Part shown: piece after piece, positions 31,794 to 49,014 of the stretch | Layout of the letters: the number at the start of each line of letters is the position of its first letter | How positions within the stretch are numbered: position 1 is the first letter of the stretch | From: Faecalibacterium sp. HTF-F | GTDB lineage: Bacteria > Bacillota > Clostridia > Oscillospirales > Ruminococcaceae | Direction of reading: 5' to 3' | Length of the DNA: 64,000 bases | Assembly: GCF_023347535.1 (NCBI RefSeq) | Contig: NZ_CP094473.1 | Span: forward strand, 1,674,001-1,738,000 | Position numbers and translations under genes: made by a program | The notes under the pieces: generated by a model | Databases searched by the model: none | The model's input: only the letters and a program-made list of their open reading frames with translations | Told to the model about the DNA's origin: nothing

Positions 31794-33443
31794 ATGCCCT
31801 TACAGAAAAATCAAGTTCTCACTCTGCAGGTGGAGCGCCTGTCCAGCGATGGCAGCGGTGTCGCCCACAGCCCGGAGGGTGAGACCGTGTTCATTCCCGG
31901 TGCAGCGCCCGGCGATGAAGCCCGGGTACGCATCGTCAAGGACTGCAAGCGCTACGCTTTCGGCATTCTGGACGAGGTGCTCACACCCTCGCCCGATCGC
32001 ATCCCGGTGGACTGTGCTGTGGCCGGTCCCTGCGGCGGCTGCAGCCTGCGGCATCTGGACTATGCCGCCGAGCTCCGCGCCAAGCAGGAGAATGTTGCAG
32101 ACGCCTTTGCACGCATCGGCGGGCTGGATGTTCCGGTCCTTCCCATCGTAGGCTCCCCGGAGATCGACCGATACCGCAACAAAGTCCAGTTTCCGGTCGG
32201 AACAGACAAAGCCGGCCACCCCTGCATTGGTTTTTATGCCGGGCGTACCCACCGTATCGTTCCCTGTCCGGACTGCCGCCTGCAGCCCGGCGTACTGAAT
32301 GAGATCGGCAACACACTGTGCGCATTCTTTGCAGAAAAAGGCATCCACCCCTACAATGAGGAGACCGGCAAGGGCCTTGTACGGCATATTTTCCTGCGCC
32401 GCGGTGCACACAGCGGACAGATCATGGTTTGTCTGGTATGCACTCGTGCCAAGCTTCCTTCAGCCGAAAAGCTGTGCACCCGGCTGAAGGAGGCGTTTCC
32501 GGACATTGTCACCATCCTGCTGAATGTCAACGCAAAAAACACCAATGTCATCCTTGGTTCCGAGACTCACACCCTGTATGGACAGGGGTATATTGAAGAC
32601 ACCCTCTGCGGCGTCCCGGTGCAGCTTGGCCCGCTTTCGTTTTATCAGGTAAACACGCTTGCCGCTGAGCAGCTCTACGGCATCGCTGCCGAATACGCCC
32701 AGCTGACACCGGATGACCTTTTGCTGGATCTCTACTGCGGCATGGGCACCATCGGCCTTTCCATGGCAGACCACTGCCGTGAGCTGGTGGGCGTAGAGAT
32801 CGTACCCGAAGCCATCGAAAGCGCCAAGGCCAATGCCGCCCGCATGGGTACAGCGGTTTCCGCCAAGAGCCGCTTCTTCTGCGCCGATGCCGGGCAGGCG
32901 GCCGCACAGCTGGCCGCCGAGGGCCTGCACCCGGACGTCGTGATGCTGGACCCGCCCCGCAAGGGCTGCGACGAGGCCACCCTTTCTGCCGTGGTACGCA
33001 TGGCCCCCCGCCGGGTGGTCTACGTCAGCTGCAACCCCGCCACCGCCGCCCGGGACGCCGCATGGTTGGAACAAAATGGGTATCACGCAGAAAAAGTGCA
33101 GCCTGTGGATCTGTTTCCAAGGACGAAGCATTGCGAATGTGTCATTGCACTTTCCAAGGGTGAGATCGACTCCAAAAAAGTCCGTGTAGAGTTCTCTTTG
33201 GAGGGCATGGACACTTCAGGATTGCAAAAGGGTGCGACCTATCCTGAAATCAAGGCCCGTGTGTTGGAACAGACTGGGCTGAAGGTTTCTTCCCTGTATA
33301 TCTCGCAGGTCAAGCAGAAATGCGGTCTGGAGGTACGAGAGAGCCACCATAAGGCGAAGTCCGAAAATGTGAAGCAGCCTCAGTGTCCGAAAGAAAAAGA
33401 GGATGCGATCGTGGAAGCGTTGCGGCATTTTCAGATGATTTGA
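31794..33443 (+). CDS. rlmD: 23S rRNA uracil-C5-methyltransferase (RlmD-like)
   Basis: 549-residue RumA/RlmD-type enzyme making m5U in 23S rRNA. It has an N-terminal TRAM domain, the Fe-S cysteines in CAVAGPCGGCSLRHLDY with a fourth Cys in VPCPDC, the SAM motif LLDLYCGMGTIGLSM and the catalytic Cys in VYVSCNPATAARD. A C-terminal extension of about 95 residues (from about 455) beyond the catalytic core, containing GATYPEIKARVLEQTGLKVS, is common in Firmicutes members. Starts 12 bases after the AraC gene. m5U1939 versus m5U747 specificity is not certain. Confidence 0.9.
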   Translation: MPLQKNQVLTLQVERLSSDGSGVAHSPEGETVFIPGAAPGDEARVRIVKDCKRYAFGILDEVLTPSPDRIPVDCAVAGPCGGCSLRHLDYAAELRAKQENVADAFARIGGLDVPVLPIVGSPEIDRYRNKVQFPVGTDKAGHPCIGFYAGRTHRIVPCPDCRLQPGVLNEIGNTLCAFFAEKGIHPYNEETGKGLVRHIFLRRGAHSGQIMVCLVCTRAKLPSAEKLCTRLKEAFPDIVTILLNVNAKNTNVILGSETHTLYGQGYIEDTLCGVPVQLGPLSFYQVNTLAAEQLYGIAAEYAQLTPDDLLLDLYCGMGTIGLSMADHCRELVGVEIVPEAIESAKANAARMGTAVSAKSRFFCADAGQAAAQLAAEGLHPDVVMLDPPRKGCDEATLSAVVRMAPRRVVYVSCNPATAARDAAWLEQNGYHAEKVQPVDLFPRTKHCECVIALSKGEIDSKKVRVEFSLEGMDTSGLQKGATYPEIKARVLEQTGLKVSSLYISQVKQKCGLEVRESHHKAKSENVKQPQCPKEKEDAIVEALRHFQMI

Positions 33444-33484
33444 TAAGTTGAAGCAACCTGCTGATGCTAAACAGGAGGCATCGA

Positions 33485-35233
33485 ATGTCAAAATTAAACA
33501 TTGATCAAAAAAGCGTGCGGGCACTTTTCAGTGAGAAGAAGGCTGATTTCCTCATTCCGGATTATCAAAGGCCTTACGCCTGGGGAGAAAAGGAATGCCA
33601 GACTCTTTGGGATGACCTGTTCTTATTTGCATTTCCTGATAATGACTGCGACAAATTCAACAGTGACAGCGATGAGTATTTTCTCGGCCCCATCGTCACA
33701 TTTAAAAATGATGACGGTAAAATGGAGATTATTGACGGACAACAGCGCCTTACGACATTGATGCTGTTGCTTCGAGCTTTCTATGAAAAATATGGAAGCA
33801 TGAAGAACGATAAAGCTGTAAAGACCAGCAAGTTCATTGAGCAGTGCATCTGGAAAACCGATGAGTTTGGTGACCCGGACAAGTCAGCATTGAAAATCGA
33901 CTCAGAAGTCGCCACCGACAAGGAAAAGGGCGAATTTCTGAATATCCTGAAAACAGGAACCTTGTCTGATTGCGAAAAGAGCAGCTACGCCAATAACTAT
34001 CGCTTTTTTCAGCAAAAGATCGTAGACTTTCTGAATACTTACCCAGACTGGTTTTCCTTCTTTCCGATTCGGATCATGAACAACTGTATTTTGCTCCCGA
34101 TTGAAGCAGAATCTCAGGACACCGCTTTGCGAATCTTCTCGACATTGAATGACCGCGGAAAGCCACTGTCTGATGCAGATATCTTCAAGGCGCAATTTTA
34201 CAAGTATTACTCTGCCAAAGGCGAGCGGGAAGTCTTTATCCAAAAGTGGAAGGACCTCGAGGTACTGTGTGATTCTATTTTCCATCCTATTACCGGCACT
34301 CCGATGGATGAGCTTTTCACACGGTATATGTACTATGAACGTGCAAAGCAAGGCATCAAATCCTCGACAACGGAGGCGCTGCGCAAATTCTATGAGCGGA
34401 ATGCTTACAGCTTGCTAAAAAATGACCAGACTTTTGAAAATCTGATCGATCTTGCAAATTTCTGGAATGATGTGCAGAATCAAAATGTTGAGCGCTTCTC
34501 TGACCGAGTTCTTCGCAGGCTCTTTGTTCTGAACTACGCTCCCAACGGTATGTGGACCTATTTTGTTTCGGTCTATTACATGGCCAATCGGGATTCTGAT
34601 GGTCTACTGAACGACGATCGTTTCTATAGCTTTCTTAACAAAATCACCGCATTCATCTGGGCATATGCCGTTACAAATCCGGGCGTAAATGCACTGCGCA
34701 CTCCCATTTTTGCAGAAATGATCAACATTGTAACCGGGCAACCTGTTCGGTTTTCTGACTATTTGTTTGATACTCAGAAATTGCAGAACGCTTTTGACAA
34801 CTATACCTTCAGCAACAACCGCGCGATCACAAAGGCCATGCTGACATGGTGGGCATTCCAGAACTCCTCCCAGGAGCTCTTGTCCCTTGAAAGTGTACTT
34901 GAGATCGAGCACATCTACGCACGCAACCGCCAGGAAAAGGAGCACTCGCTTTCCAATCCGAGAAATGTTGAAAGCCTTGGCAACAAGGTGTTGTTGGAAA
35001 AGCGCATCAATATCCGCGCTTCTGATTATCGCTTCAGCGATAAGGTCAAGTACTATACCGGTTTTGAAAACAACCGGAAGCAGAAAAAAGAGGGTACAAA
35101 AATCAAGGAGCTTACTGACCTCGCTGCGAATGCCACAGATTTTACCGAATCTGACATTGTAGAGAGAAACGCCAAAATCATCCTCAACTTTATCACCTTC
35201 ATGCACAACAACGATCTTCTATGTGAAGATTAA
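33485..35233 (+). CDS. DUF262/DUF1524 GmrSD-like nuclease
   Basis: 582-residue protein related to GmrSD, a type IV system that cuts modified (glycosylated or methylated) phage DNA. The N-terminal DUF262 ParB-like NTPase motif is IIDGQQRLTTLMLLLRAF, preceded by LIPDYQRPYAWGEKECQTLW. The C-terminal DUF1524 His-Me finger nuclease has LEIEHIYARNRQ and LGNKVLLEKRINI. AGGAGG precedes the ATG at 33485. Codon use is clearly more AT-rich than rlmD, pointing to horizontal gain. Followed by a terminator and then a type I restriction operon. Confidence 0.85.
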   Translation: MSKLNIDQKSVRALFSEKKADFLIPDYQRPYAWGEKECQTLWDDLFLFAFPDNDCDKFNSDSDEYFLGPIVTFKNDDGKMEIIDGQQRLTTLMLLLRAFYEKYGSMKNDKAVKTSKFIEQCIWKTDEFGDPDKSALKIDSEVATDKEKGEFLNILKTGTLSDCEKSSYANNYRFFQQKIVDFLNTYPDWFSFFPIRIMNNCILLPIEAESQDTALRIFSTLNDRGKPLSDADIFKAQFYKYYSAKGEREVFIQKWKDLEVLCDSIFHPITGTPMDELFTRYMYYERAKQGIKSSTTEALRKFYERNAYSLLKNDQTFENLIDLANFWNDVQNQNVERFSDRVLRRLFVLNYAPNGMWTYFVSVYYMANRDSDGLLNDDRFYSFLNKITAFIWAYAVTNPGVNALRTPIFAEMINIVTGQPVRFSDYLFDTQKLQNAFDNYTFSNNRAITKAMLTWWAFQNSSQELLSLESVLEIEHIYARNRQEKEHSLSNPRNVESLGNKVLLEKRINIRASDYRFSDKVKYYTGFENNRKQKKEGTKIKELTDLAANATDFTESDIVERNAKIILNFITFMHNNDLLCED

Positions 35234-35248
35234 ATCCTTCTATGATCG

Positions 35249-35285
35249 ATGCCCGTCTGATTTTCAGGCGGGCATTTCTTTTTGG
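35249..35285 (+). terminator. Terminator after first DUF262 gene
   Basis: ATGCCCG-CTG pairs with CAG-CGGGCAT (one G-T pair), followed by TTCTTTTT. Confidence 0.8.
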
Positions 35286-35292
35286 CAAAATA

Positions 35293-35321
35293 TAGTCATT
35301 CTACAAAATCCGTGGTACAAT
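35293..35321 (+). promoter_or_regulatory. Probable promoter of hsd operon
   Basis: TAGTCA (35293-35298) and TACAAT (35316-35321) are 17 bases apart, with a 109-base leader before hsdM. The -35 box is weak. Confidence 0.5.
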
Positions 35322-35429
35322 AGATGCAAGAATCATTTTTGAGGAAAAGCATCCTGCTATCCGATTTATAGGACACCCATCGTTGTAAAATCAGGATGTC
35401 CACCTATCACAAAAAACAAGGAGCAACGT

Positions 35430-37187
35430 ATGCCAAACGATAAGATCACCGCCGTAGGTGCCAACATTGCCGAAAAAGCCGCCATGATCTGGAATGTAGC
35501 CGATATGCTGCGGGGGCCGTTCAAGCCCCACGAGTACGGTCTGGTCATTCTGCCCATGACCGTGGTGAAGCGGTTCCACGACTGTCTGCTGCCCACCCAT
35601 CAGGCAGTGCTGGACACCTACGAGAAGGTGAAAAAGCTGCAGGTCATCGACGGCTTTTTGCAGAAGGCCTCCGGCTACCAGTTCTATAACACCAGCCGGT
35701 TCACCTTCGAGACCCTGCTGGCTGACCCGGACAACATTGAGTCCAACTTCCGGGATTACCTGTCCGGTTTCTCTGCCAACGCACAGGATGTGCTGGCAAA
35801 GTTCGACTTTGACAACATCATCAAGCGGATGGTAGAGAGCAACACCCTCTACCTCGTTATCAAGGAGTTTGGCTCCGAGAAGGGATATCTTGGCCCGGAC
35901 AAGATCAGCGCCGTGGACTGCGGCTATATCTTTGAGGACCTGGTGCGGCGGTTCTCCGAAAGCTTTGGCGAGGAAGCCGGAGCGCACTTCACCAGCCGGG
36001 ATATCATCTACCTGATGACCGACCTGCTGCTGTCCGAAGCCGACCTCGATACCAGCAGCATGACCGTTTACGATATGGCCATGGGCACCAGCCAGATGCT
36101 GAGCTGCATGGAGGAGCGCATCCACGAGCTGAACAGCGACATTGAGGTGACCTGCTTCGGGCAGGAGTTCAACCCCTCCACCTTTGCCATCGCCAAGGCG
36201 GATATGATGATCCGCGGCGGCGACCCCAACAATATGCGGTTCGGTGATACTTTGTCGGAGGATCAGTTTCCCGGATTCACCTTCCAGTACATCATCTCCA
36301 ACCCGCCCTTCGGCATCGACTGGAAGCGGGAGCAGAAGGCGGTGGAAGCCGAAGCCGCCCGGGGCGAGATGGGGCGTTTTGCGCCCGGTCTGCCCAAGAT
36401 CAGCGATGGTCAGCAGCTTTTTGTGCTGAACGGCCTTGCCAAGCTGGCAAACAAGGGCAAAATGGCCATTATCCAGAACGGCTCTCCCCTGTTCAGCGGC
36501 GATGCCGGCAGCGGGCCCAGCAACATCCGGCAGTATATTCTGGAAAACGACTGGCTGGACTGCATCATCCAGCTTTCCACCGATATGTTCATGAACACCG
36601 GCATCTCCACCTACATCTGGGTGCTCAGCAAGGATAAGCCCGCCCACCGTGCAGGCAAGGTACAGCTTATTGACGCCAGCCACTGCTTTGAGCCACGCCG
36701 CAAGAGCATCGGCACCAAGCGCAACGACATCACCGATGCCTGCCGGGAGCTGATCGTCACCGCCTACGGCGAATCTGCCAACGGCAAGGTGTACGGCGAC
36801 AAAAACGGCATCTACTGCGAGAGCAAGGTGTTCGAGAGCGTGGAGTTCGGCTACAACAAGATCGTGGTGGAGCGCCCCCAGCGGGACGAGGCGGGCAACG
36901 TTATCCTGAAGCGCGGCAAACCTGTGCCGGACACCAGCCTGCGGGACACCGAAAACGTACCGCTGGTGCAGGATATCGACGCCTACTTTGCCCGGGAAGT
37001 TCTGCCCTACGCCCCCGACGCATGGATCGACCACAGCAAGACCAAGGTGGGCTACGAGATCCCCATGACCCGCTATTTCTACGAGTATCAGGCGCCGGAA
37101 GCCGTGGAGGATATCGTGGCGCGCATCACCGCACTGGAACAGGATATCTCCGCCGGGCTGGCAGAGCTGTTCCATAAGGAGGACTGA
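35430..37187 (+). CDS. hsdM: Type I restriction-modification DNA methylase (M)
   Basis: 585-residue M subunit that, with S, methylates adenine in a split recognition site and is needed for restriction by R. The N-terminal helical domain begins IAEKAAMIWNVADMLRGPFK. The catalytic N6-adenine motif is IISNPPFGIDW (motif IV). Motif I reads VYDMAMGTSQML rather than the common DPxxGxG, a variant I associate with this subgroup. AAGGAG precedes the ATG. The stop is two bases before hsdS. GC-rich, like hsdR and unlike hsdS. Confidence 0.93.
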   Translation: MPNDKITAVGANIAEKAAMIWNVADMLRGPFKPHEYGLVILPMTVVKRFHDCLLPTHQAVLDTYEKVKKLQVIDGFLQKASGYQFYNTSRFTFETLLADPDNIESNFRDYLSGFSANAQDVLAKFDFDNIIKRMVESNTLYLVIKEFGSEKGYLGPDKISAVDCGYIFEDLVRRFSESFGEEAGAHFTSRDIIYLMTDLLLSEADLDTSSMTVYDMAMGTSQMLSCMEERIHELNSDIEVTCFGQEFNPSTFAIAKADMMIRGGDPNNMRFGDTLSEDQFPGFTFQYIISNPPFGIDWKREQKAVEAEAARGEMGRFAPGLPKISDGQQLFVLNGLAKLANKGKMAIIQNGSPLFSGDAGSGPSNIRQYILENDWLDCIIQLSTDMFMNTGISTYIWVLSKDKPAHRAGKVQLIDASHCFEPRRKSIGTKRNDITDACRELIVTAYGESANGKVYGDKNGIYCESKVFESVEFGYNKIVVERPQRDEAGNVILKRGKPVPDTSLRDTENVPLVQDIDAYFAREVLPYAPDAWIDHSKTKVGYEIPMTRYFYEYQAPEAVEDIVARITALEQDISAGLAELFHKED

Positions 37188-37189
37188 CC

Positions 37190-38431
37190 ATGGCACGGAA
37201 AATGAAAGATAGCGGCATTGAATGGATCGGGGAGATTCCAGAGGGGTGGGAGGTTGTACAACTCAAACGCTTTGCTGAAGTTCACAATGGTCGTGAGATT
37301 GACGTTGAAGTCGATAGTACCGATTCTTCTGCCGTTGGAGTATATGGCTCTGGTGGAGTTTTTAAATACACCAATCGTGCACAATACAGTGGAAAAGCTG
37401 TTCTTTTTGGGCGAAAAGGAACTCTCGGCAAGCCCTTGTATGTTGAAGGACAACTATGGGCAGTAGACACCATGTATTTTCTCACTTACAGTAATCGCCT
37501 ACTTGAAAAATTCAGTTATTATCAATTTTTAGCCTTTAACTGGGCTCCTTATATCACTCACACTGCTATTCCTAGTGTTGTTGCATCTGAAATTGTTGCT
37601 TGTTATTTTCCTATTCCACCGCTAGAGGAACAGGCAAAAATCGCAGATTACCTTGATAATGGTTGTGCTTCACTTGATACCATCCTCGACAAAACTCGTT
37701 CCAGCATCGAGGAATACAAAAAGCTCAAGCAGGCAGTTATTACGCAGGCTGTGACCAAAGGCGTGCGTGGTGAGCGGGAGATGAAGGATAGTAAAGTTGA
37801 TTACATCGGACAAATTCCTGACGAATGGGTTCTTTGTAAACTCCGCAATATCGGTGATGCTCAAAACGGTATTAGTAAGGCCAGTGAATTTTTCGGTAAA
37901 GGAACACCATTTGTAAGTTATAGTGATGTTTATAAAAATTACTCTCTGCCTTTTTCCGTATCTGGATTAGTCGAGTCCACTCCAGAAGAACAAGAGCGAT
38001 ACTCTGTAAAGGAGGGAGACATTTTCTTTACCCGGACTTCCGAAACAATCGAAGAAGTTGGATTTTCTTGTGTTTGTGAAAAGGATATTCCCAATGCCAC
38101 GTTTGCTGGTTTTCTCATCCGAGTACGTCCATTTTCAGACAAATTGCATACACCGTATGCAAAGTATTATTTTAGAAGCTCTCACTTACGGTTTTATCTT
38201 GTTAAGGAAATGAATCTTGTAACACGGGCTAGTCTTGGGCAGAGCCTTCTTAAATCCATGCCTGTTTTGTTGCCACCACTTGAAGAGCAAAAAGAAATTG
38301 CTGCCTACCTTGACGCCAAGTGCGCCGAAATTGATAGGCTGATTGCAAAGAAGGAGCAGCTGGTAAAAGAACTGGAAAGCTATAAGAAAAGTTTGATTTA
38401 TGAGGTTGTAACAGGGAAACGGGAGGTGTAA
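37190..38431 (+). CDS. hsdS: Type I restriction specificity subunit (S)
   Basis: 413-residue S subunit with two target-recognition domains that define the DNA site. Each half starts with a matching phrase (MKDSGIEWIGEIPEGWEV at residue 4 and MKDSKVDYIGQIPDEWVL near 197), and each ends in a conserved helix (PPLEEQAKIADYLD, PPLEEQKEIAAYLDAKC). The terminal helix KKEQLVKELESYKKSLIYEV is the second spacer. The recognition domains are AT-rich, as if swapped in from another source. Confidence 0.92.
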   Translation: MARKMKDSGIEWIGEIPEGWEVVQLKRFAEVHNGREIDVEVDSTDSSAVGVYGSGGVFKYTNRAQYSGKAVLFGRKGTLGKPLYVEGQLWAVDTMYFLTYSNRLLEKFSYYQFLAFNWAPYITHTAIPSVVASEIVACYFPIPPLEEQAKIADYLDNGCASLDTILDKTRSSIEEYKKLKQAVITQAVTKGVRGEREMKDSKVDYIGQIPDEWVLCKLRNIGDAQNGISKASEFFGKGTPFVSYSDVYKNYSLPFSVSGLVESTPEEQERYSVKEGDIFFTRTSETIEEVGFSCVCEKDIPNATFAGFLIRVRPFSDKLHTPYAKYYFRSSHLRFYLVKEMNLVTRASLGQSLLKSMPVLLPPLEEQKEIAAYLDAKCAEIDRLIAKKEQLVKELESYKKSLIYEVVTGKREV

Positions 38432-38432
38432 A

Positions 38433-39416
38433 ATGGAAGAAAATAAATTCCAGGATGTTTTGGGCAATATTTTAATGGAAACACTATCAAATCGTGCGGA
38501 CGAATTGCAAAAAGAAGGAAAATCCATTTCAGACATTTCTAAAATCCTCAATGATGATAAAATATCTTCTATCGTTGAAAAACTTCTTGAGCGGGCTTCT
38601 TCCGACAATGTTTCCTTTTACAAATCACATCTTCATGAAATTATCGAAGATGCTGACATTGAAAAGAACCGCTTTCTTCAGCATCACCATTCAATCTGGG
38701 GGGAATGTTTTGAAGCCTCTCGTGTTATGTATATAATTGCTGTTGAGGGTGCGGAAGCTTTCTGTCATTATGTAACAGATAATATTCCGATTGATACCCG
38801 CGAATCAAAACAATTCACATTTTTGGCTCTTCAACACATTCATGGACGCGTTTGCCAACAGTTTGCTGAGGTTCTCTGTCTTATGGAAAATGGTTTCGCA
38901 GATGGAGCCTATGCTCGTTGGCGCTCAATGTTTGAATTGTGTTGCACGGCTACTTTTATTTCTGAACAGGGTGAACAGATTGCAAAACAATATATCGAGG
39001 CTTCTAAGTCCGACAAGCAAAAGTATGAGTGGACAAAAGGTGCAAAAGATCCATCTGGGAAAGAAATCACAATAAAAACTTTTGCTGCGCTCCAATCACA
39101 ATGTCATGTTAATGAAAAATGGAAACCACAATATAAGCTTGCCTGCTCTATCATTCATCCTACGCCTCAAGGAACAATGGGGCGTTTGTCTAACGCGGAT
39201 AATTCCAACTGTGTTCCTGTAGGACAATCAAATTTTGGCATTTCTATTCCTGCGGAGCATTCTGCCATATCATTAGCATGGGCAACCAACATTTTTCTTA
39301 CTGTGTTCACATATATGGATGGTCTATCAACTTGTGAAACTCTAAACAAATGGATTGATGTTATTCGTGCGTTATATTTTTCTGCAATGGACAATTATAA
39401 AGGAGGTAAAAAATGA
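38433..39416 (+). CDS. DUF5677-type protein within hsd operon
   Basis: 327 residues. The central segment LMENGFADGAYARWRSMFEL with FISEQGEQIAKQYIE matches DUF5677 proteins, which are helical and of unknown function. It starts two bases after hsdS and overlaps the next gene by four bases (ATGA), so it is part of the operon. AT-rich like hsdS. Its place between specificity and restriction subunits suggests an accessory or separate defence role; no catalytic motif is visible. Confidence 0.72.
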   Translation: MEENKFQDVLGNILMETLSNRADELQKEGKSISDISKILNDDKISSIVEKLLERASSDNVSFYKSHLHEIIEDADIEKNRFLQHHHSIWGECFEASRVMYIIAVEGAEAFCHYVTDNIPIDTRESKQFTFLALQHIHGRVCQQFAEVLCLMENGFADGAYARWRSMFELCCTATFISEQGEQIAKQYIEASKSDKQKYEWTKGAKDPSGKEITIKTFAALQSQCHVNEKWKPQYKLACSIIHPTPQGTMGRLSNADNSNCVPVGQSNFGISIPAEHSAISLAWATNIFLTVFTYMDGLSTCETLNKWIDVIRALYFSAMDNYKGGKK

Positions 39417-39970
39417 ACAGTCCTGATGTAAACGCTATTGTAGCTTCCGCTACAACAATAAATTGGGTTACAGACGTAATTGTTCCGTTGACTTCTGCGC
39501 TTATTGGTGGTCTAGTAGCACTGGTAGGCGTTTATATCACCCTATCCCATGAGCGCAATGTCCGAAAAGCTGAAATCTCCGCGAATGCAAGGCCCTTCTT
39601 CTCAATTTTCGGAATGTATGACCATGGTCGTTTTTCTAATGCTCAAGAACATGTATTTTCTTTCGTCTCTGGTGATATTTATGATGACAACCAATCTCAT
39701 CTCGTTGCAAATGTTGTTAATTCTGAAAAAATCGAATTTGTAATAAATGAATTTTGCATTGATGGTATTCATTATCATCCCCATGGATACGAAAAACAAT
39801 TCATTTCAAAAGGTTTAGTTTGCACAATAGTTATCAATATTAAAACAGGTGCAAATTTGTCCGATGCTTTAATGTATGTCACCGATATCAATTCCACAAA
39901 GCACATTTACAAATTAAAATGTAGAAATGAACTTGTTATCGATTTTGAAGAAGTTCAAAAGGAGGTCTAA
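39413..39970 (+). CDS. Membrane-anchored small protein within hsd operon
   Basis: 185 residues, one N-terminal membrane helix (about 20-45: [20 protein letters not shown]) followed by a basic stretch and a soluble beta-rich domain of unknown type. It overlaps DUF5677 by four bases and precedes hsdR by two bases. A membrane anchor beside DUF5677 suggests the pair may act together at the membrane. No family recognised. Confidence 0.62.
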
Positions 39971-39972
39971 CC

Positions 39973-42945
39973 ATGCCCCTCAACACCACCGAAAAGCAGT
40001 TTGAATCGGACATTGCGGCGGCGCTGCTCTCCCCTGCCGGGGGCTACACCCGCAACGGGGATTGCTACGACCCCAAGCTGGGGCTGTTTGTGGATACCCT
40101 GATCCGCTTTGTGCAAAAGACCCAGCCCAACGAGTGGGCATTTTTTGAAAAGCAGAACCCGGTAAACCCGGTGCGAAAATTCTGCACTGCCTTTAACAAT
40201 GCCTGCGATGCGGACGGACTGCTTTCGGTGCTGCGGTATGGGTTCAAGCACCGGGGACGGCGGTTCCGGGTGTGCTATTTTCAGCCGGAATCCGCGCTGA
40301 ACCAGAAGGACGCCCAGCGCTACGCTCAAAACGAGATCACCTGCAGCCGGCAGTGGTTCTACTCTGACACCACCCACAACTCGGTGGACATGGTGCTGGC
40401 GGTAAACGGCATCCCGGTGTTCGCCTTTGAGCTAAAGAACCAGTTCACCGGGCAGACCGTGGAGAACGCCAAGCAGCAGTGGATGCACGACCGGGACCCG
40501 CGGGAGGTGTGTTTCCAGTTCAACAAGCGCATTCTGGGCTACTTTTGCGTAGACCTGACCGAGGTGTGGATGGCCACCCGGCTGGCAGGCAAGGACACCC
40601 GCTTTCTTCCCTTCAATCAGGGCTCTAACGGTGCCGGACGGGACGGCGGCGCAGGCAACCCGCCCAACCCCAGCGGCTACCTTACCGCCTACCTCTGGGA
40701 AGAAGTGTTCCAGAAGGACAGCATGATGGACATCCTGCAAAAGTTCATGAGCCTGCAGGACGGCAAGACCCTGATCTTTCCCCGGTACCATCAGCTGGAC
40801 GTGGTGCGTAAGCTGGTGGCAGATGTGCGGCAGAAAGGTGCCGGGCAGCACTATCTCATCCAGCACAGCGCCGGGTCGGGCAAGTCCAACTCCATTGCTT
40901 GGACGGCGTACCGGCTGGCTTCCCTGTTCAACACCGAGAACAAGCCGGTGTTTGCCAGTGTCATCGTGGTGACTGACCGCACCGTGCTGGACGCACAGCT
41001 GCAGGAGACCATCTCCGGCTTCGACCATACGCTGGGTGCGGTGGAGGCCATCGGCGAGGACAAAAACTCCGGCGACCTGCGGGATGCCATCAACAACGGC
41101 GCACGCATCATCATCACCACGCTGCAAAAGTTCCCGGTCATCTATACTGAGGTAAACAAGACTGCCGGGAAGAACTATGCCGTTATCATCGACGAAGCGC
41201 ACTCCTCCCAGACCGGCACCTCTGCTTTAAAGCTGAAAGCCGCCCTTGCCGACACTGAGGACGCGCTGCGGGAATATGCCGAGCTGGAAGGCAAAGCGGA
41301 GGACGAGATCGACCCGGAGGATGCTCTGGTGAAGGAGTTGACCTCCCACGGGCGGCACAAGAACCTGTCCTTCTTTGCCTTTACCGCCACCCCAAAAGCC
41401 GCCACGCTGGAGCTGTTCGGCACCGAGTACCCGGACGGCAGCCACCACCCTTTCCACATTTACAGTATGCGGCAGGCCATTGAGGAAGGGTTCATTCTGG
41501 ATGTGCTGCAAAACTACATGACCTATTCCACCTGCTTTAAGATCGCCAAGACCATCCCGGACAACCCCGACCTGCCTGCCAGCCGGGCGGCAAAGCTCAT
41601 CCGCAAGTATGAAGAGCTGCACCCCTACAACATCAGCCAGAAGGCAAAGATCATTGTAGAGACCTTCCGGGAGACCACCAGCCACAAGATCGGCGGGCGG
41701 GGCAAGATGATGGTGGTCACCTCCTCCCGGCTGGCGGCGGTGCGGTACTTTCACGAGGTCAAGCGCTACATTGCGGAGCAGGGCTATGACGATGTGCAGA
41801 TCTTAGCGGCGTTTTCCGGTGCCGTACCGGACGGCGGCGTGGAGTACACGGAGCAGTCCCTGAACGTCCGCGCCGACGGCAGCCACATTACAGAGAGCCA
41901 GACCAAAAAGGAGTTCCACAACAACTTCAATGTGCTCATCGTGGCAGAAAAATACCAGACCGGTTTTGACGAACCGCTGCTCCATACCATGATCGTGGAC
42001 AAAAAGCTGAAGGGCGTCAAGGCGGTGCAGACTCTCTCCCGTCTGAACCGTACCTGTCCCGGTAAAATTGACACCTTTGTGCTGGATTTTGTGAACAAGG
42101 CGGAGGACATCCGGGAGGCATTCCAGCCCTTTTATCAGGAGACGTTTCTGGAGCAGGAGGTCAACACCGACCTCATTTACAAAACCCAGAAGGAACTGCG
42201 GAGCTTTGCGGTCTATTCCGATGCAGACGTGGAAGCCTTTGCCAAGGAGTATTTCCGCAGCACCAAGCAGGATAAAAACGCCGTGGGCCGCATGAGCAGC
42301 GTCTTGAAGCCGGTGGCAGACCGCTACAACCAGAAGACACAGGCCGAGCGGTACCAGTTCCGCCGCCTGCTGCGCAGCCTTGTCAAGTGGTACGGCTACG
42401 TTTCACAGGTGGCGCGGATGTTTGATGAAGAGCTGCACAAGGAGAACGTATTCTGCGCTTACCTGCTCAAACTGCTGCCGCCGGACGAGGTCTCTCCGCT
42501 GGACTTAGAGGGCAAATTACAGTTGGAGTATTACAAGCTGCAAAAGACCTTTGCCGGTGCCATCGAGCTGGAACACGCCAAGGGCGTCTACGAGCCAGTC
42601 ACCCAGAAAGGCGCTCTCGGCCACGACCCCAAGGAGCCGCTGGACGAGATCATTTTGAAGATCAACGAGAAGTTCAAGGGCGAGTTCACCAATGCCGACC
42701 GGGTGCTGCTTACTGCCCTGCATGACCGTCTGCTGGCCGACCCGAAGCTGGCAAAGCTGGCGCGCAGCTCCGACCCGCAGATCTTTACCGAGAGCATCTT
42801 CCCCAAAGCCTTTGACACCGCCGCACAGGACAGCTATCTTGAAGCGCAGGACACCTTCTCTTCCCTGTTTGAAGATACCAGCAAGTACAAGGCTATCATG
42901 TCAGCATTGGCAGAGTGGCTGTATGGAGAATTCCGCAAGAAGTAA
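39973..42945 (+). CDS. hsdR: Type I restriction enzyme R subunit
   Basis: 990-residue motor and nuclease subunit. The N-terminal PD-(D/E)XK nuclease centre is seen in [20 protein letters not shown] (Asp, then E-x-K), followed by TVENAKQQW. The SF2 motor has Walker [18 protein letters not shown] box [13 protein letters not shown], motif [13 protein letters not shown], and later motifs [16 protein letters not shown] and [11 protein letters not shown]. Full length, GC-rich. AAAGGAGG precedes the ATG at 39973. A terminator-like hairpin lies 185 bases after the stop. Confidence 0.94.
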
Positions 42946-43390: not shown

Positions 43391-43488
43391 TGATTCATTC
43401 AATATTGCACAAAACCGGAACTATTACTTCCGGTTTTGAAGGCAAAAAGCGGAAGTATCACTTCCTAAAAAATCGAGCAATTTTATGG

Positions 43489-43494
43489 TATGCT
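43489..43494 (+). promoter_or_regulatory. -10-like box 1 (TATGCT) of hairpin-linked promoter
   Basis: Lies 23 bases after the P hairpin ending at 43465. The transcript would run into the T hairpin at 43520 and end there as a short RNA. Confidence 0.45.
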
Positions 43495-43591
43495 CTATCC
43501 AGAGCCGTTCACAAGAACCGGACCTCCCAAGTCCGGTTTTCTCCCTCAAAACCGGACCTGATACGTCCTAAAAATACTTATTTGATTGTGA

Positions 43592-43597
43592 TAGGCT
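43592..43597 (+). promoter_or_regulatory. -10-like box 2 (TAGGCT) before structured RNA copy 1
   Basis: Lies 23 bases after the P hairpin ending at 43568, and about 15 bases before the conserved RNA-like repeat. Confidence 0.45.
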
Positions 43598-43610
43598 TTC
43601 TACAAGCCTT

Positions 43611-43726
43611 CATCGAACCTTGAGAACCGAATGACCGTCTGCATGGGATACCCGGCCATGACCCCGCAAGGGAGAGCCGGAAAACGCCGCTGGAAGGGGG
43701 TAGGAAGTCCGTGCAGAGAGAACGGC
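43611..43726 (+). ncRNA. Structured repeat, copy 1 (candidate small RNA)
   Basis: A sequence of about 115 bases that recurs at 44011-44130 at roughly 80% identity by eye. Pairings seen: CCGT with ACGG; CTGCATGGGA with TCCGTGCAG; CCGGC with GCCGG; and an inner CCC-GCAA-GGG hairpin. In copy 2 the same helices are kept by different bases (CCGCATGGA/TCCATGCGG and CTC/GAG), so changes are compensatory. It follows a -10-like box and is followed by a T hairpin (43762) that may end it. No open frame. I recognise no known RNA family. Confidence 0.6.
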
Positions 43727-43853
43727 ACCCAAAATTTGAAATCACGTTGATACGAAAAACCAGAACCAGTAGTTCCGATTTTGCCTTGAAATTCATTTCA
43801 TATCCCTTAAAAACCGGAACTACCAGTTCCTAAAAACAAAATTTACGATGTGA

Positions 43854-43859
43854 TACACT
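43854..43859 (+). promoter_or_regulatory. -10-like box 3 (TACACT) of hairpin-linked promoter
   Basis: Lies 23 bases after the P hairpin ending at 43830, within TGTGATACACT. The T hairpin at 43902 would end a transcript of about 55 bases. Confidence 0.45.
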
Positions 43860-43993
43860 AAGCCCACAGAAGCACATTCTTCATTGCTTTCACACCAGTT
43901 CAGGCATTGAATGTCCGATTTTTAGCAGAAATTCAAATCAACTTTCGTAAAAACCAGACATAATGTGTCCTAAAAAATCTCCCATGAATGTGT

Positions 43994-43999
43994 TAGCCT
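43994..43999 (+). promoter_or_regulatory. -10-like box 4 (TAGCCT) before structured RNA copy 2
   Basis: Lies 23 bases after the P hairpin ending at 43970 and leads into the second structured repeat and the ParB-like gene. Confidence 0.45.
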
Positions 44000-44010
44000 A
44001 GTTTCAAATC

Positions 44011-44130
44011 TATCATTGAACCTTGAGAACCAAATGACCGTCCGCATGGAATACCCGGCGATGATCTCACAAGAGCGAGCCGGAAGACGCCGCCGGAAGG
44101 GGGCAGGAGATCCATGCGGGGATAACGGCT
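44011..44130 (+). ncRNA. Structured repeat, copy 2, in ParB-like gene leader
   Basis: Second copy of the 115-base repeat. Helices CCGT/ACGG, CCGCATGGA/TCCATGCGG, CCGGC/GCCGG and CTC-ACAA-GAG are kept by bases different from copy 1. It ends 36 bases before the ParB-like start, so it would form the 5' leader of that mRNA. Copy 1 stands alone. One free copy and one leader copy could regulate each other or share a bound protein; this is inference. Confidence 0.6.
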
Positions 44131-44166
44131 GAACTACCAATAAATTTTTGAAAGGAGATTTTGCCT

Positions 44167-45240
44167 ATGAAGAAAAACAAGTTTGAATTTATCATTGATT
44201 CCGAATTTCAATCTCAGATTCCTGCATTGACCGATGAAGAATTTCAGCAACTGGAAGAAAACATCCTTTCAGAGGGCGAAGTCCTGTCTCCCCTGATCGT
44301 CTGGGGCAACATTCTTGTTGATGGTCATAATCGCTATAAGATTCTCCAGCATCACCCGGAAATTCCTTATACCACCCGTTCGATTTCCTGCACCTGCGAA
44401 ACCCGTGAAGATGTTCTGGCATGGATCTGCAAACATCAGCTGAGTCGTCGGAATCTGACACCCGAGCAGAAAAAGTTTCTGATTGGAAAGCAGTATCACT
44501 CTGAAAAATCCACTCGTGGGGGAAACCATGGCAATCAGTACACGCAGGTGGCAAACTGTCAAATTGACAATTTGCCATCGGTAGAAAACACGACCGAACG
44601 AATCGCCAAAGAAAACAATGTAAGCCCTTCTTTCGTAATTCGTGCCGAGCAGTTCATGAAAACCGTTGAGCTGATGGAAAAATACTGCCCCGGCATTCAG
44701 GAAGAAATCTTATCCGGAAAACTTAAGCTATCTCAGCGAGAGGCTACCATTATCCGTGGAACTCCCACGGAAGCATTGCCTACCGTGGTATCAACGTGGC
44801 GAGAGGGAAAGCTGAACGGTAAACCAGACGATAGTGCAGACACCTATGAAAATTTAGAATTGCTTTCCAAGGTCACCGAACGCAATTTCTCTAGTGCTGC
44901 CACATCGAAGATCCAAACGGCTGATCCACTCTCGGAGAATCGACCTTTTATTTCATCGGGAAAGCGCAGCACCGAACTCCAGACCATTCGTGAGCTAGGA
45001 GAAAAGATGGCAACGGTTGATCATGTCGCCGATGCCGAAGGAATGTTCAGTGAAATCAACAGTGCCTCTGATAGCTTTATTTTCCGTCTCGAACAATGCT
45101 TTGCTCTGTATCCCGACTTTCTGACAAATGTAGAGATTGAAGCAAAAGTTATTGCTGCTTTGCAAAAGGCAGAAAGCTATATTGTGCATCTGAAAGAACA
45201 GCATCGGCAGCATCTTCTGGAGACTACCAACAGCCAGTAA
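44167..45240 (+). CDS. ParB-like nuclease-domain protein
   Basis: 357 residues. The N-terminus (about 15-100) has the ParB/Srx fold pattern: FQQLEENILSEGEVLSPLIV, then GNILVDGHNRYKILQHH, and the basic segment ICKHQLSRRNLTPEQKKFL. A central HTH-like region follows (ERIAKENNVSPSFVIRAEQF, then GKLKLSQREATIIRG). The C-terminus is helical. GGAG lies nine bases before the ATG at 44167. It begins the replication module parB-repA-dnaC of the element, with its long leader holding the structured repeat. Partition or replication control is the likely role. Confidence 0.78.
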   Translation: MKKNKFEFIIDSEFQSQIPALTDEEFQQLEENILSEGEVLSPLIVWGNILVDGHNRYKILQHHPEIPYTTRSISCTCETREDVLAWICKHQLSRRNLTPEQKKFLIGKQYHSEKSTRGGNHGNQYTQVANCQIDNLPSVENTTERIAKENNVSPSFVIRAEQFMKTVELMEKYCPGIQEEILSGKLKLSQREATIIRGTPTEALPTVVSTWREGKLNGKPDDSADTYENLELLSKVTERNFSSAATSKIQTADPLSENRPFISSGKRSTELQTIRELGEKMATVDHVADAEGMFSEINSASDSFIFRLEQCFALYPDFLTNVEIEAKVIAALQKAESYIVHLKEQHRQHLLETTNSQ

Positions 45241-45241
45241 A

Positions 45242-46000
45242 ATGCTTTCCAAAAATTTGTTTGATGAAAAAACACTGGAGGTGAATTTTATTTCCGACTA
45301 CCTGACTGTTACTACACCTTTGCCGCAATATCTGCCCTATGCTCGCTTTCTACTGGATACAGACCTGAGCCACACAGCAAAATTGCTCTACACCCTGCTG
45401 CTGGACCGGGCAACACTTTCCCAAAAGAACAACTGGATGGATGAGCGCGGCTTCGTCTATGTAATTTTTCCCATTTCATCATTGAGCGAAGCCCTGCGAT
45501 GCAGTACCATGAGCACTAAACGTGCATTGCGCTCACTGGAGGATGCCGATCTGATCGAGCGCAGAAGAGGTCGCATTACTGTGCCCAACAGCATCTTTGT
45601 AAAAGTCCCGACAGAACAAAAATGTTCCTTTGCATGGAACGATTCTGCCCTATGCGATGGAACAGAAATGATACCTTCCACGGAACAAAAGTGTTCCACT
45701 AACCAACGTAATAAGAACAACCTGAAAGATAACCACCTGATAAAAACAACAGCTGCTCATTTGACCTTTGGCGAATATCAAAACGTCTTTTTAACAGAGA
45801 TGGAGTACAAGCGGCTCAAAGCCGACTTTTCCGGACTAGATGGCCTGATCGAACAGCTTTCAGCTTATATCCAGTCCACCGGCAAAAAATATGCCGACCA
45901 TGCCGCTACCCTGCGCATCTGGGCAAAACGGCAAAAGTCGGAACAAAAGCAAGCACCGGGCATCCCGGACTACACATTCAGGGAAGGAGAAAGCCTATAA
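45242..46000 (+). CDS. RepA_N-type replication initiator
   Basis: 252 residues. The N-terminal segment ISDYLTVTTPLPQYLPYARF, LSHTAKLLYTLLLDRATLSQ and FPISSLSEALRCSTMSTKRA LRSL region form the winged-helix domain of RepA_N initiators found on Firmicutes plasmids and Tn1549-type elements. A polar linker and a DnaD-like C-terminal part (FGEYQNVFLTEMEYKRLKAD) follow. It starts two bases after the ParB-like stop and overlaps the DnaC-like gene. It probably binds an origin in the hairpin region and recruits helicase through the DnaC-like protein. Confidence 0.82.
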   Translation: MLSKNLFDEKTLEVNFISDYLTVTTPLPQYLPYARFLLDTDLSHTAKLLYTLLLDRATLSQKNNWMDERGFVYVIFPISSLSEALRCSTMSTKRALRSLEDADLIERRRGRITVPNSIFVKVPTEQKCSFAWNDSALCDGTEMIPSTEQKCSTNQRNKNNLKDNHLIKTTAAHLTFGEYQNVFLTEMEYKRLKADFSGLDGLIEQLSAYIQSTGKKYADHAATLRIWAKRQKSEQKQAPGIPDYTFREGESL

Positions 46001-46833
46001 AGACGATCGAAAAAATTTTGGAACAGCTCCCATCCAGTATTCCCGAAAACACCGATGATTATTATGGCAAGGACGGCCTGCTTCATTGTGGAAAGTGTCA
46101 CACCCCAAAAGAAGCGTTCTTTGCAAAGGGCATTGCCCTGATGGGCAAAAACAAGCACCCAATCGAATGCATCTGCCAGCGCACGGAAAGAGAAAAACAA
46201 GAAGCCCTTATCAGCCAGCAAAAGCACAACGACCTTGTGCGGCGGCTGAAAGCAGAGGGATTTTCTGACCCGTCAATGCTGGACTGGACCTTTGAAAACG
46301 ACAATGGCCGCAGCCCACAGATGCACCACGCACACCGCTATGTAGAGCAATGGCAGACCATGCGCGCAGAGAACCTTGGGCTTCTTCTCTGGGGTGGTGT
46401 AGGCACCGGCAAGAGTTTCCTTGCCGGGTGCATTGCAAACGCTCTGATGGAGCAGGAAGTGCCTGTGCGTATGACAAACTTTGCCCGAATCCTGAACGAG
46501 TTGAACAGCAGCTTTTCCGGGCGGAACGATGTTGTGGACAATCTCTGTCGCTACCCCCTGCTCATCATTGACGATTTCGGCATGGAACGTGGCACCGAAT
46601 ACGCACTGGAACAGATCTACAACATCGTGGACAGCCGATACCGCAGCCGGAAGCCGCTGATCGTCACCACCAACCTGACGCTGGGCGAGATACGATACCC
46701 ACAGGATACCGCCCATGCCCGCATCTATGACCGCCTGCTGGAAATGTGCATTCCGATCTCCTGCATTGGGGTCAGCTTACGGAAGGAGAACGCACAGGAA
46801 AAGCTGGAACGCTTAAAAAGTTTAATCGGATGA
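45997..46833 (+). CDS. DnaC-like helicase-loader ATPase
   Basis: AAA+ ATPase of the DnaC/IstB group, about 278 residues. A zinc-binding N-terminus (LHCGKCHTPKEAFF, then IECICQRTEREK) precedes Walker A LLWGGVGTGKSFLAG, Walker B PLLIIDDFGME and sensor 1 PLIVTTNLTL. Start choice: GGAG is seven bases before an ATA codon at 45997 that overlaps the repA stop (ATAA where relatives have ATGA); the next start is a TTG at 46018 without a ribosome site. Loads replicative helicase for the element. Confidence 0.83.
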   Translation: MKTIEKILEQLPSSIPENTDDYYGKDGLLHCGKCHTPKEAFFAKGIALMGKNKHPIECICQRTEREKQEALISQQKHNDLVRRLKAEGFSDPSMLDWTFENDNGRSPQMHHAHRYVEQWQTMRAENLGLLLWGGVGTGKSFLAGCIANALMEQEVPVRMTNFARILNELNSSFSGRNDVVDNLCRYPLLIIDDFGMERGTEYALEQIYNIVDSRYRSRKPLIVTTNLTLGEIRYPQDTAHARIYDRLLEMCIPISCIGVSLRKENAQEKLERLKSLIG

Positions 46834-47128: not shown

Positions 47129-47344
47129 ATGGACTGCAAAGACAAAATCCTCGAACTGCGCGAATCGACCGGGATGAACCGCCGGGAGTTTTGCACTTTC
47201 TTCCAAATTCCCTACCGCACTGTAACAGAATGGGAACTCGGCCACCGCCATGCGCCAGAGTATGTACTCCGGTTGCTAGAGTATTATATCCAGCATGAAA
47301 ATCTCACACAACAACCAACCGCTGAAAGTGAGGATTTCTTATGA
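47129..47344 (+). CDS. Small XRE-type HTH protein
   Basis: 71 residues, essentially one helix-turn-helix: ILELRESTGMNRREFCTFFQ, then IPYRTVTEWELGHRHAPEYV. Such proteins repress the recombinase of clostridial elements. Its stop overlaps the recombinase start (ATGA), so the two are translationally coupled. The TTGCGTA repeats upstream are its likely operator. Confidence 0.8.
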   Translation: MDCKDKILELRESTGMNRREFCTFFQIPYRTVTEWELGHRHAPEYVLRLLEYYIQHENLTQQPTAESEDFL

Positions 47345-49014
47345 AAAAAGCACGCACCAAATGCTACATTTATACTCGCGTATCTACGGCCATGCAGGTG
47401 GACGGTTACAGCCTTGATGCACAGCGTGAAAAGCTGCGCAAATATGCCGATTATGAAGATATGGTCATTGCTGGAGAATATTCTGATGAAGGATTTTCCG
47501 GTAAGAACATTCAAGGTCGGCACGAATTTCAACAGATGCTGCGAGATGTGCAAGACTGTAAAGACGGCGTTTCTTATGTTCTGGTATTCAAACTCTCCCG
47601 TTTTGGGCGCAATGCGGCCGATGTTCTGAACTCCTTGCAGCTTATGCAGGATTTCGGTGTCAATTTGATTTGCGTAGAAGATGGCATCGACAGTTCCAAA
47701 GATTCCGGCAAGTTAATGATTTCCGTTCTTTCTGCTGTTGCTGAAATCGAACGTGAGAATATCCGTGCTCAAACGATGGCCGGCCGTGAACAAAAAGCCC
47801 GTGAGGGCAAATGGAACGGCGGCTTTGCACCCTATGGCTATAGGCTGGAAAATGGCGAGCTTTCGATTGCAGACGATGAAGTGGAAGTTATCCGTGTTAT
47901 TTTTGACCGCTTTATCCATACCAACGATGGTGTAGCAGGTATTGCCCGGTATCTGAACACCCATGGGTATGTGAAAAAGCTCCGTCAGAATGGAACTATC
48001 CCAAAGTTTTCTGCTGTATTTGTTAGAGGTATTCTGGACAATCCCATTTACTGCGGTAAGATTGCATTTGGTCGCCGCAAGGTTGAAAAGAAACTCGGCA
48101 CTCGAAACGAAATGCACGTTGTGAAGCAATCCGAGTTTCCCGTCTATGTCGGTCAACATGAAGCCATCGTTTCCGAGGACGACTGGAATCTTGCACAGAC
48201 AAAGCGTCAGCGTACCACAGGGCGGCGTGAAAAGGTCCGCGACCCAGACCACGCACATATTCTTTCCGGCATTCTGAAATGCCCCTGCTGTGGACGGAAT
48301 CTGTACGGAAATGTCTCTAAGGCTCACAGCAAGGATAACAAAACTCGTTACTACTACTTCTGCAAGAGTATCAAAGGGCAGACTGGACACGAATGTTCTT
48401 TCCGGTTGAACATTGAACAGAACGAAATCAATCAGATGGTCGCATCCATCGTATCCGCTATGGTTCACGACCCACGCTTCGTAGATGCCATCAAAGAGAA
48501 AATCGGTTCCGCAGTCGATACCAGCGAGTTAGACCGTCAGGCCGATGCAATCAAAGTGCAGCTCCGCCAGCGACTCAGTACGAAATCTCGTCTGGAGCAC
48601 CAGATGGACACACTGGACTTTAATGATCCCTATTATGACCGTAAGTCTTTGGATTTGCAGCGACGTTACGATGAGCAATATGAACTGATTGAGGACATGG
48701 AAACCCAGCTCGCTGAAATCCAAGGTCAGATTGATGACATTCATCAGGAGAAGATCACAGCTGACAACATCTATCACCTGCTTCTGGCCTTCGATGAAGT
48801 CTACAATGCCGCCACTGAGGTGGAGCAAAAGGAATTCATGCGCGCCTTCATCGAGCGCATTGATATTTTCCCGGAAAAACAGCCAAATGGCAACTGGATT
48901 CGGAACATTGTATTTGCCTTCCCTGTTCCCTATAATGGAAAAGAGATTCGAGAATTTCCCTTGGAATCGCAATCAACCGTTGAGTGCGTACTCTTGATGT
49001 CAAAAGCGCAGTAA
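47341..49014 (+). CDS. Large serine recombinase (integrase)
   Basis: 557 residues. N-terminal resolvase domain with CYIYTRVSTAMQVDGYSLDA, where the Ser of RVST is the nucleophile, and IAGEYSDEGFSGKNIQGR. A recombinase domain (GIARYLNTHGYVKKLRQNGT) and a zinc ribbon (CPCCGRNLYGN with later Cys residues) follow, then a coiled-coil C-terminus. It would integrate and excise the element at its right end. Distinct in sequence from the recombinase at 52496-54004. Confidence 0.92.
   Translation: MKKARTKCYIYTRVSTAMQVDGYSLDAQREKLRKYADYEDMVIAGEYSDEGFSGKNIQGRHEFQQMLRDVQDCKDGVSYVLVFKLSRFGRNAADVLNSLQLMQDFGVNLICVEDGIDSSKDSGKLMISVLSAVAEIERENIRAQTMAGREQKAREGKWNGGFAPYGYRLENGELSIADDEVEVIRVIFDRFIHTNDGVAGIARYLNTHGYVKKLRQNGTIPKFSAVFVRGILDNPIYCGKIAFGRRKVEKKLGTRNEMHVVKQSEFPVYVGQHEAIVSEDDWNLAQTKRQRTTGRREKVRDPDHAHILSGILKCPCCGRNLYGNVSKAHSKDNKTRYYYFCKSIKGQTGHECSFRLNIEQNEINQMVASIVSAMVHDPRFVDAIKEKIGSAVDTSELDRQADAIKVQLRQRLSTKSRLEHQMDTLDFNDPYYDRKSLDLQRRYDEQYELIEDMETQLAEIQGQIDDIHQEKITADNIYHLLLAFDEVYNAATEVEQKEFMRAFIERIDIFPEKQPNGNWIRNIVFAFPVPYNGKEIREFPLESQSTVECVLLMSKAQ

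Follow-up and report, generated by a model that had tools for sequence, protein, structure and literature searches.

ImmR of ICEBs1 is a small XRE regulator encoded beside its target promoter in a mobile element, and the single-pair loci described below are alike in this respect. One report mentions multiple ImmR sites and the possibility of looping (PMC4207663). The array in our window differs from the ICEBs1 system in that it holds putative operators of several specificities without a cognate regulator, each at a fixed spacing to a -10 box. RcoLS20 of pLS20 is an HTH regulator that works through two operators and DNA looping at the conjugation promoter; according to the same report, each operator contains several motifs (a1-a7 and b1-b4) and one lies more than 75 bp from the promoters (PMC4207663). 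In contrast, the array has single 15-bp palindromes 34 or 54 bp apart. With the Stl system of SaPIs (PMC6695447) the array would share the sensing of other elements by a dependent element. SaPIs sense through their own repressor, which binds helper proteins, whereas the array would use DNA sites for foreign regulators. canT of Tn916 is described as a leader RNA letting RNA polymerase pass terminators in an ICE (PMC11658703); it offers a precedent for antitermination in an integrative element. A literature search, whose coverage excluded most subscription journals, found nothing resembling the array.

Array layout and relatives

The window is a 64,000-nt stretch (G000:C1:1674001-1738000) of the 2.78-Mb genome of Faecalibacterium sp. 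HTF-F. The array occupies positions 43410-43999, 5' of an operon encoding a ParB-like protein, a RepA_N protein and an IstB/DnaC-like ATPase, which is followed by a gene for a large serine recombinase. An earlier note on this DNA had described eight 15-base palindromes forming four T/P pairs, with a -10 box always 23 bases after P. All eight palindromes were located in the window, and the boxes TATGCT, TAGGCT, TACACT and TAGCCT lie exactly 23 bases after P in all four units. In the following list the palindromes are unstranded.

43417-43431, T1 palindrome GGAACTATTACTTCC, with a terminator-like fold; same as the putative P operator of XRE locus L265
43451-43465, P1 palindrome GGAAGTATCACTTCC, proposed operator, 34 bp after T1
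43489-43494, plus strand, -10 box TATGCT, with TGn before it
43520-43534, T2 palindrome GGACCTCCCAAGTCC, with a terminator-like fold
43554-43568, P2 palindrome GGACCTGATACGTCC, 14/15 identical to P of XRE locus L199
43592-43597, plus strand, -10 box TAGGCT, with TGn before it
43617-43728, plus strand, copy 1 of a 112-nt structured RNA, starting with boxA-like ACCTTGAGAAC
43762-43776, T3 palindrome AGAACCAGTAGTTCC, 54 bp before P3
43816-43830, P3 palindrome GGAACTACCAGTTCC, 15/15 identical to P of XRE loci L198, L204 and L307
43854-43859, plus strand, -10 box TACACT, with TGn before it
43902-43916, T4 palindrome AGGCATTGAATGTCC, weak, 54 bp before P4
43956-43970, P4 palindrome AGACATAATGTGTCC, with no cognate XRE locus found
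43994-43999, plus strand, -10 box TAGCCT, with TGn before it
44020-44131, plus strand, copy 2 of the 112-nt structured RNA, leader of the ParB operon
44167-45240, plus strand, ParB-like protein, named by eye, with no Pfam or NCBIfam match at E 0.001
45242-46000, plus strand, RepA_N replication initiator
46018-46833, plus strand, IstB/DnaC-like ATPase
47341-49014, plus strand, large serine recombinase, Ccr-like but below the Ccr cut-offs

T and P start 34, 34, 54 and 54 bp apart in the four units, a regularity absent from the earlier note. Stem complementarity, which that note had reported, is imperfect: P1-P4 are paired at 6, 5, 6 and 4 of six positions, and T1-T4 at 5, 5, 4 and 4.

Two kinds of locus with such pairs were found in Faecalibacterium. 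Arrays, comprising that of the window and six relatives, have one to four units: four in the window, L193 (genome G396), L195 (G405) and L201 (G408), two in L194 (G401) and the phage-labelled record MT836687 (L020), and one in L327 (G419). By two DNA searches they occur in 6 of 31 Faecalibacterium genomes (G000, G396, G401, G405, G408 and G419). Array DNA also matched two phage records and no plasmid, and palindrome pattern scans of viral contigs gave no match. The same motif in the same setting is present in records of F. longum, F. prausnitzii, Faecalibacterium sp. An121 and I4-1-79. The second kind, type B, has a single T/P pair directly 3' of an XRE (HTH_3) gene and 5' of a leader with pemK RNA, after which come a small ORF and then a ParB-like gene. 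Searching by conserved peptides gave no ParB relatives in genome contigs or viral contigs, and the whole-genome search found relatives. Four type-B stretches, which also carry chromosomal genes, yielded 20 proteins; an integrase (L295) and fragments of recombinase (L297) are among them, conjugation genes are not.

The spacing of 23 bases from P to the box is kept in all relatives examined, in 19/19 array contexts (window included) and 13/13 type-B contexts, these 32 contexts being partly homologous and the two group labels having been set by the analyst. L327, left out of these counts as well as of the covariation and T-P distance counts, likewise has its box at 23 by eye. Of 80 background hits of the palindrome pattern, none has a box at this spacing; 9 have TAnnnT elsewhere at 20-26. 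TG stands at the extended -10 position of 19/19 array boxes and 0/13 type-B boxes. T-P start distances were called in 32 of 33 contexts by taking the best palindrome within 22-89 bases of P, and were 34 (13 contexts), 54 (12), 33 (3), and 53, 36, 38 and 43 (one each). For the values 38 and 43 the script appears to have missed the T: by eye, T of L201 P4 lies at 54 and T of L283 at 33. A clear T is lacking for L195 P2. There are two classes of distance, 33-36 bp and 53-54 bp, separated by roughly two turns of the helix. For four of five palindrome types the array pair has the same distance as the type-B pair, and for the fifth the two are 36 and 34. In nine type-B loci no operator-like palindrome besides T was found upstream of P.

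Matching between T and P within a pair, also claimed earlier, holds on average, with a mean of 3.41 mismatches against 5.29 in shuffles (22 distinct pairs), and breaks down in L180, L195 pair 4 and L327. The arms of P covary. Across 15 distinct P, position 4 is paired in 11/15 (5.2 in shuffles, p=0.0005), position 5 in 11/15 (6.2, p=0.007) and, less clearly, position 6 in 10 (8.7, p=0.09), p-values that are optimistic because the sequences are related. Loop positions 7/9 showed no covariation with P and T pooled (15/31 vs 15.3), the list of 17 T having been made by hand.

The earlier proposal that structure is kept instead of sequence, and that the sites therefore act in single-stranded DNA or RNA, is not supported by comparison with type B, as the palindromes recur base for base elsewhere, downstream of XRE regulator genes. 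Of the 11 distinct array P, three are identical to a type-B P (shuffle mean 0.069, p=0.00005) and five are within one mismatch of one (0.83 expected, p=0.0002); L195 P2 is the same as L197 P, and L195 P4 as L180 P. In four array/type-B pairs the palindrome is alike at 14-15/15 bases and the adjoining bases at 4-5/5 and 5-6/6. In the same pairs the 17 bases before the -10 agree at 3-6/17, those after it at 9-11/30, and the 19 bases further upstream at 6, 6, 8 and 11 of 19, the last value being P2/L199. Because the flanks are mostly unmatched, the palindrome appears to be mainly what the loci share, rather than a recently copied segment. Local conversion is a possible source of the shared palindromes.

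Several single loci add to this picture. In L327 (1523-1571, G419) a pair-1-type T is followed, at 34 bp, by an L197-type P, as if unit 1 and a later unit had recombined, which shows that units recombine. The window's own genome has a type-B T/P pair at G000:C1:110088-110297 (L205); the XRE reading frame ahead of it matches the profile without its first third. Differently spelled palindromes stand ahead of the same boxA-like leader in L267 (3' of its XRE), L245 (near 1395) and L246, the one in L245, GGACTACGAGTCC, being about 24 bases before the -10 by eye; given these, the T/P architecture may be wider than the present motif. In L180, L197 and L204 a gene about 700-1260 bases upstream of P and 5' of the XRE gene resembles, by eye, sigma region 4/phage late-regulator proteins.

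XRE regulators beside single pairs

The 3' end of an XRE gene lies 50-180 bases before P in L180, L196, L197, L198, L199, L203, L204, L265/L292 and L307, the nine type-B representatives covered by this range, and also in L320. All four XREs tested (L198, L180, L197 and L203) contain an HTH_3 domain (PF01381) above cut-off. The nearest solved structures include the ICEBs1 XRE regulator (PDB 7t8i), which we take to be ImmR, and a transposon-related DNA-binding protein (3ivp). Two XREs were compared with RstR-family repressors and both resemble them, at 50-52 bits, below the cut-off of 80. Twelve XREs, spread over 8 of 31 Faecalibacterium genomes, form the close cluster (>160 bits), and at E 1e-22 the XRE profile matched 9 of 396 genomes of the family; GGA...TCC palindromes were absent from the XRE loci outside the genus that were inspected. 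XRE queries matched no plasmid, three phage records (one close, L320) and 12 loci in viral contigs (one close, L307). In the viral contigs the L199 query gave no match and the L203 query one distant locus.

The recognition helix has the form NISDRH-L/M-x-y, and its last residue, two after DRH[LM] or DRY[LM], tracks the half-site. In a grouping of residues made after seeing the data and spanning 9 loci, N or K goes with A at position 4 (8/8 P half-sites), R with C there (4/4), and S with G at position 5 (6/6 P half-sites); the T half-sites of 9 loci obey the same rule with no exception. In other regulators, contacts of Asn with A and of Arg with G are well known. L265 and L199, with 85% identity across 69 columns, have N and R, respectively, at the residue in question, with A and C at position 4 of the half-sites. 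L307 (GK) and L320 (RR), found later, carry half-sites of their type, but both are also related to known loci (over the HTH, 81% to L198 and 94% to L199, respectively). When palindrome distance was compared across seven types with the distance of the helix or of the whole HTH, Mantel tests were not significant (r 0.04-0.25, p 0.17-0.47).

No XRE of the family was found in the window or in the array stretches L020, L288-L291, L147 and L148, apart from a distant one at window 61208, which scores 31 bits and lies beyond the conserved module, and a score of 17 bits in L289. Likewise, none of the six array-bearing genomes, few for a judgement of co-occurrence, has a close XRE of its own array's type. 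G000, G396 and G401 have no close-cluster XRE; G405 and G408 have the 'MRN' type alone, and no array carries a P of this type; and G419 has XREs of the L180 and 'MRN' types, while its one-unit array has an L197-type P. Regulators of array types are present in 5 of 31 genomes (G367, G406, G407, G418 and G419). The ParB-like protein was considered as a reader of P and rejected: L193 has a different ParB although its P2 and P3 equal those of the window.

Proposed operators weighed against other readings

The architecture, the constant spacing, the palindromes shared with XRE loci and the lack of a cognate regulator in the window and array stretches make it likely that XRE dimers use the T/P pairs as operators and that the array is a row of promoters of several specificities, addressed to the regulators of other elements. 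Each pair would provide two operators for a small XRE-family (HTH_3) dimer. With the -10 box taken as -12 to -7, P would span -50 to -36, centred at -43, in a promoter without a -35; a scan of the array region for sigma-70 -35/-10 pairs called none (1.5 in shuffles). A centre at about -43 is the usual place of an activator touching sigma. Activation is the more likely mode because the promoters have no -35 and the site lies in this usual activator place. T would lie about three or five helical turns upstream of P, with two dimers on nearly the same DNA face, binding together. We infer XRE binding, its cooperativity, the sign of regulation and the response to foreign regulators from these geometric and comparative features.

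As half-site bases vary by pair, each pair would be addressed to another member of one regulator family, and each regulator would normally come from a different small mobile element, in which its gene stands next to one T/P pair. The XRE of a type-B locus would control the operon of the element that carries it. Since the window and array stretches contain no XRE of the family, the array units would be set by regulators encoded elsewhere, and transcription of the ParB/RepA/DnaC operon would then depend on other elements. If separate regulators read separate pairs, the earlier argument that a protein-binding site would keep its sequence fails. T1/T2-type copies might also end incoming transcripts. 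Against the operator reading we count the Mantel result, the absence of a matching XRE from all six array genomes, P4 without a cognate, the T/P mismatch in the three loci named above, and the fact that transcription from P1 and P3 seems to reach no further than T2 or T4.

The same sites could be operators of XREs that repress. Extended -10 elements in the array promoters, and not in type B, mean that the array may fire unaided and be repressed; it would then be on unless all its different repressors were present, and so escape silencing by resident elements. The resemblance of two XREs to RstR-family repressors, the ICEBs1 XRE regulator among the PDB matches and the array genomes without matching regulators fit such a scheme. 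However, type-B promoters, with neither a -35 nor an extended -10, would hardly fire unaided, and the operator is clear of the -10 with no overlap, so we regard repression as rather unlikely. Folding bears on two further explanations. The earlier note had suggested hairpins acting in single-stranded DNA or RNA, for example as single-strand promoters; they could also be structural RNA signals. Arm covariation speaks for this view, as do P1 and P3, which form hairpins of 6 bp with a 3-nt loop. As single-stranded DNA the 15-mers fold at -0.1 to -3.4 kcal/mol, P1 and P3 at -3.4, P4 at -2.0 and P2 at -0.8; T1, T2, T4 and P2 are weak, at -0.1 to -1.1. Moreover, P is absent from its own RNA because it lies upstream of its own start site, and hairpins leave the two-class T-P spacing and the base-for-base sharing with XRE loci without a reason. 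Frpo and the N4 virion polymerase promoters need a stable hairpin in one DNA strand; in Frpo the -35 and -10 form within the hairpin, and N4 has a dedicated virion RNA polymerase. The array -10, in contrast to that of Frpo, lies 23 bases outside the hairpin. We find the hairpin explanation very improbable.

Terminator function, which the earlier note had read into all T hairpins, agrees with T1 and T2, folding well in RNA (-11.6 and -13.2 kcal/mol, A and T flanks included), but not with the weakly folding T3 and T4 (-2.0 and -3.5). A consensus terminator scan called none of T1-T4; its two minus-strand calls were P1 and P3, with 1.3 expected. One might thus propose back-to-back terminators insulating the promoters, T stopping rightward transcripts and P (GGA...TCCGGTTTT, minus strand) leftward ones, with stem bases drifting jointly since stems must pair. 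The covarying arms, the folds of T1 and T2 and the terminator-like P1 and P3 would suit this arrangement, which is nevertheless improbable: it explains neither the fixed 23 bases to the -10 and the 34/54 spacing nor the identical palindromes beside XRE genes with different flanks. Short terminated RNAs, as the earlier note suggested, are plausible from the layout, at about 40 nt from P1 to T2 and about 180 nt from P2 to T3. Alternatively, arms and pairs could be kept alike by mutation instead of selection, through template switching between inverted repeats that lie close together. In favour of this, T of L198 and T of L201 pair 2 are exact reverse complements of P, loop included, and T is one base off in L307 (whose pair sequences are those of L204), L292 and L193 pair 4. 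Template switching may contribute to T/P matching. As the whole explanation it has only a slim chance, leaving unexplained the sharing between unlinked loci with different flanks and the tie to XRE type.

Within the reading of T/P pairs as XRE operators for foreign regulators, a broader proposal is quite possible, if tentative. A mobile element free of the regulator family would carry operator-promoter units of several rapidly diversifying XREs, so that other elements switch its replication/ParB operon; the array would act as an OR-type (escape-type if repressing) multi-input sensor of rival or partner elements, with units reshuffled between strains. If true, mobile elements would eavesdrop on one another via DNA sites, not proteins. 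The seven XRE types with matched 15-bp operators, some differing at few recognition-helix residues, form a natural series that could serve as a test bed for the diversification of HTH specificity.

Leader RNAs and element setting

P2 and P4 lead into copies 1 and 2 of the 112-nt RNA. At gathering score Rfam, pemK included, gave no match to this RNA in the window; weak Rfam matches in the array region all scored below that threshold and were treated as chance. In a 20-copy alignment 8/19 consensus pairs change on both sides with pairing kept. The alignment used 20 of 30 RNA stretches; the others were four chance matches in the window, L010:22-145, L017:2796-2896, the shorter copies in L010 and L011, and, for both L006 and L007, one row of two that overlap. 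In single-sequence folding, with z-scores computed on stretches longer than the 112-nt element, copy 1 did not outdo its shuffles (z 1.15) and copy 2 did so only slightly (z -1.33).

The RNA begins with ACCTTGAAAAC or a near variant. This stretch also stands ahead of the pemK RNA in type-B loci and in one 16S rRNA leader inspected (L222 1350), and as CCTTGAAAACTGAAT it occurs downstream of 6/6 16S genes of G000, in the 16S-23S spacers. We infer that it is a boxA-like antitermination signal. The boxA-like RNA would let P2 transcripts pass T3 and T4 into parB, and P1 and P3 transcripts, without it, would stop. A pemK RNA match (RF02913) lies a few hundred bases 3' of each of the 12 close XRE genes. 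The pemK leader and the window leader are alike in starting with a boxA-like stretch; they differ in that type-B loci match RF02913 and the window RNA does not. That such a stretch is common to an rRNA leader, rRNA spacers, pemK leaders and the 112-nt RNA suggests that pemK-type RNAs are antitermination leaders. The linked boxA-like leaders suggest that these elements have their operons transcribed with the help of the antitermination machinery of rRNA. Further copies of the 112-nt RNA are at L018 1913-2028 and in L019 (G000:C1:765862-765976). The RNA precedes ParB-like genes, and in L018 a gene taken by eye as a mobilisation protein; relatives are present in other genera of the family.

The recombinase downstream of the operon scored below the cut-offs for SCC-type Ccr recombinases (CcrB 190 bits vs 900, CcrC 170 vs 900, CcrA 125 vs 700). 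Comparison with the arrays L288-L291 and L020 placed the start of a conserved module near window 42975 in L288, L289, L290 and L020, and its right end near 46909 in L288-L290. L291 shares more on the left than window 42975 and has lost the middle, and L020 stops inside ParB. In G401 (L148 near 4775; L291 12760) the unit-2 RNA abuts the 3' end of the DnaC-like gene directly, units 3-4, ParB and RepA being absent. The cargo on the left is variable: the window has genes for type I restriction and GmrSD, and L289/L290 have genes for type III restriction. In the window (31794-42945) and L288-L291 the array module is bordered by changing restriction systems, the pattern of a defence cassette. Farther left, the window and L289 carry an RNA uracil-methyltransferase gene.
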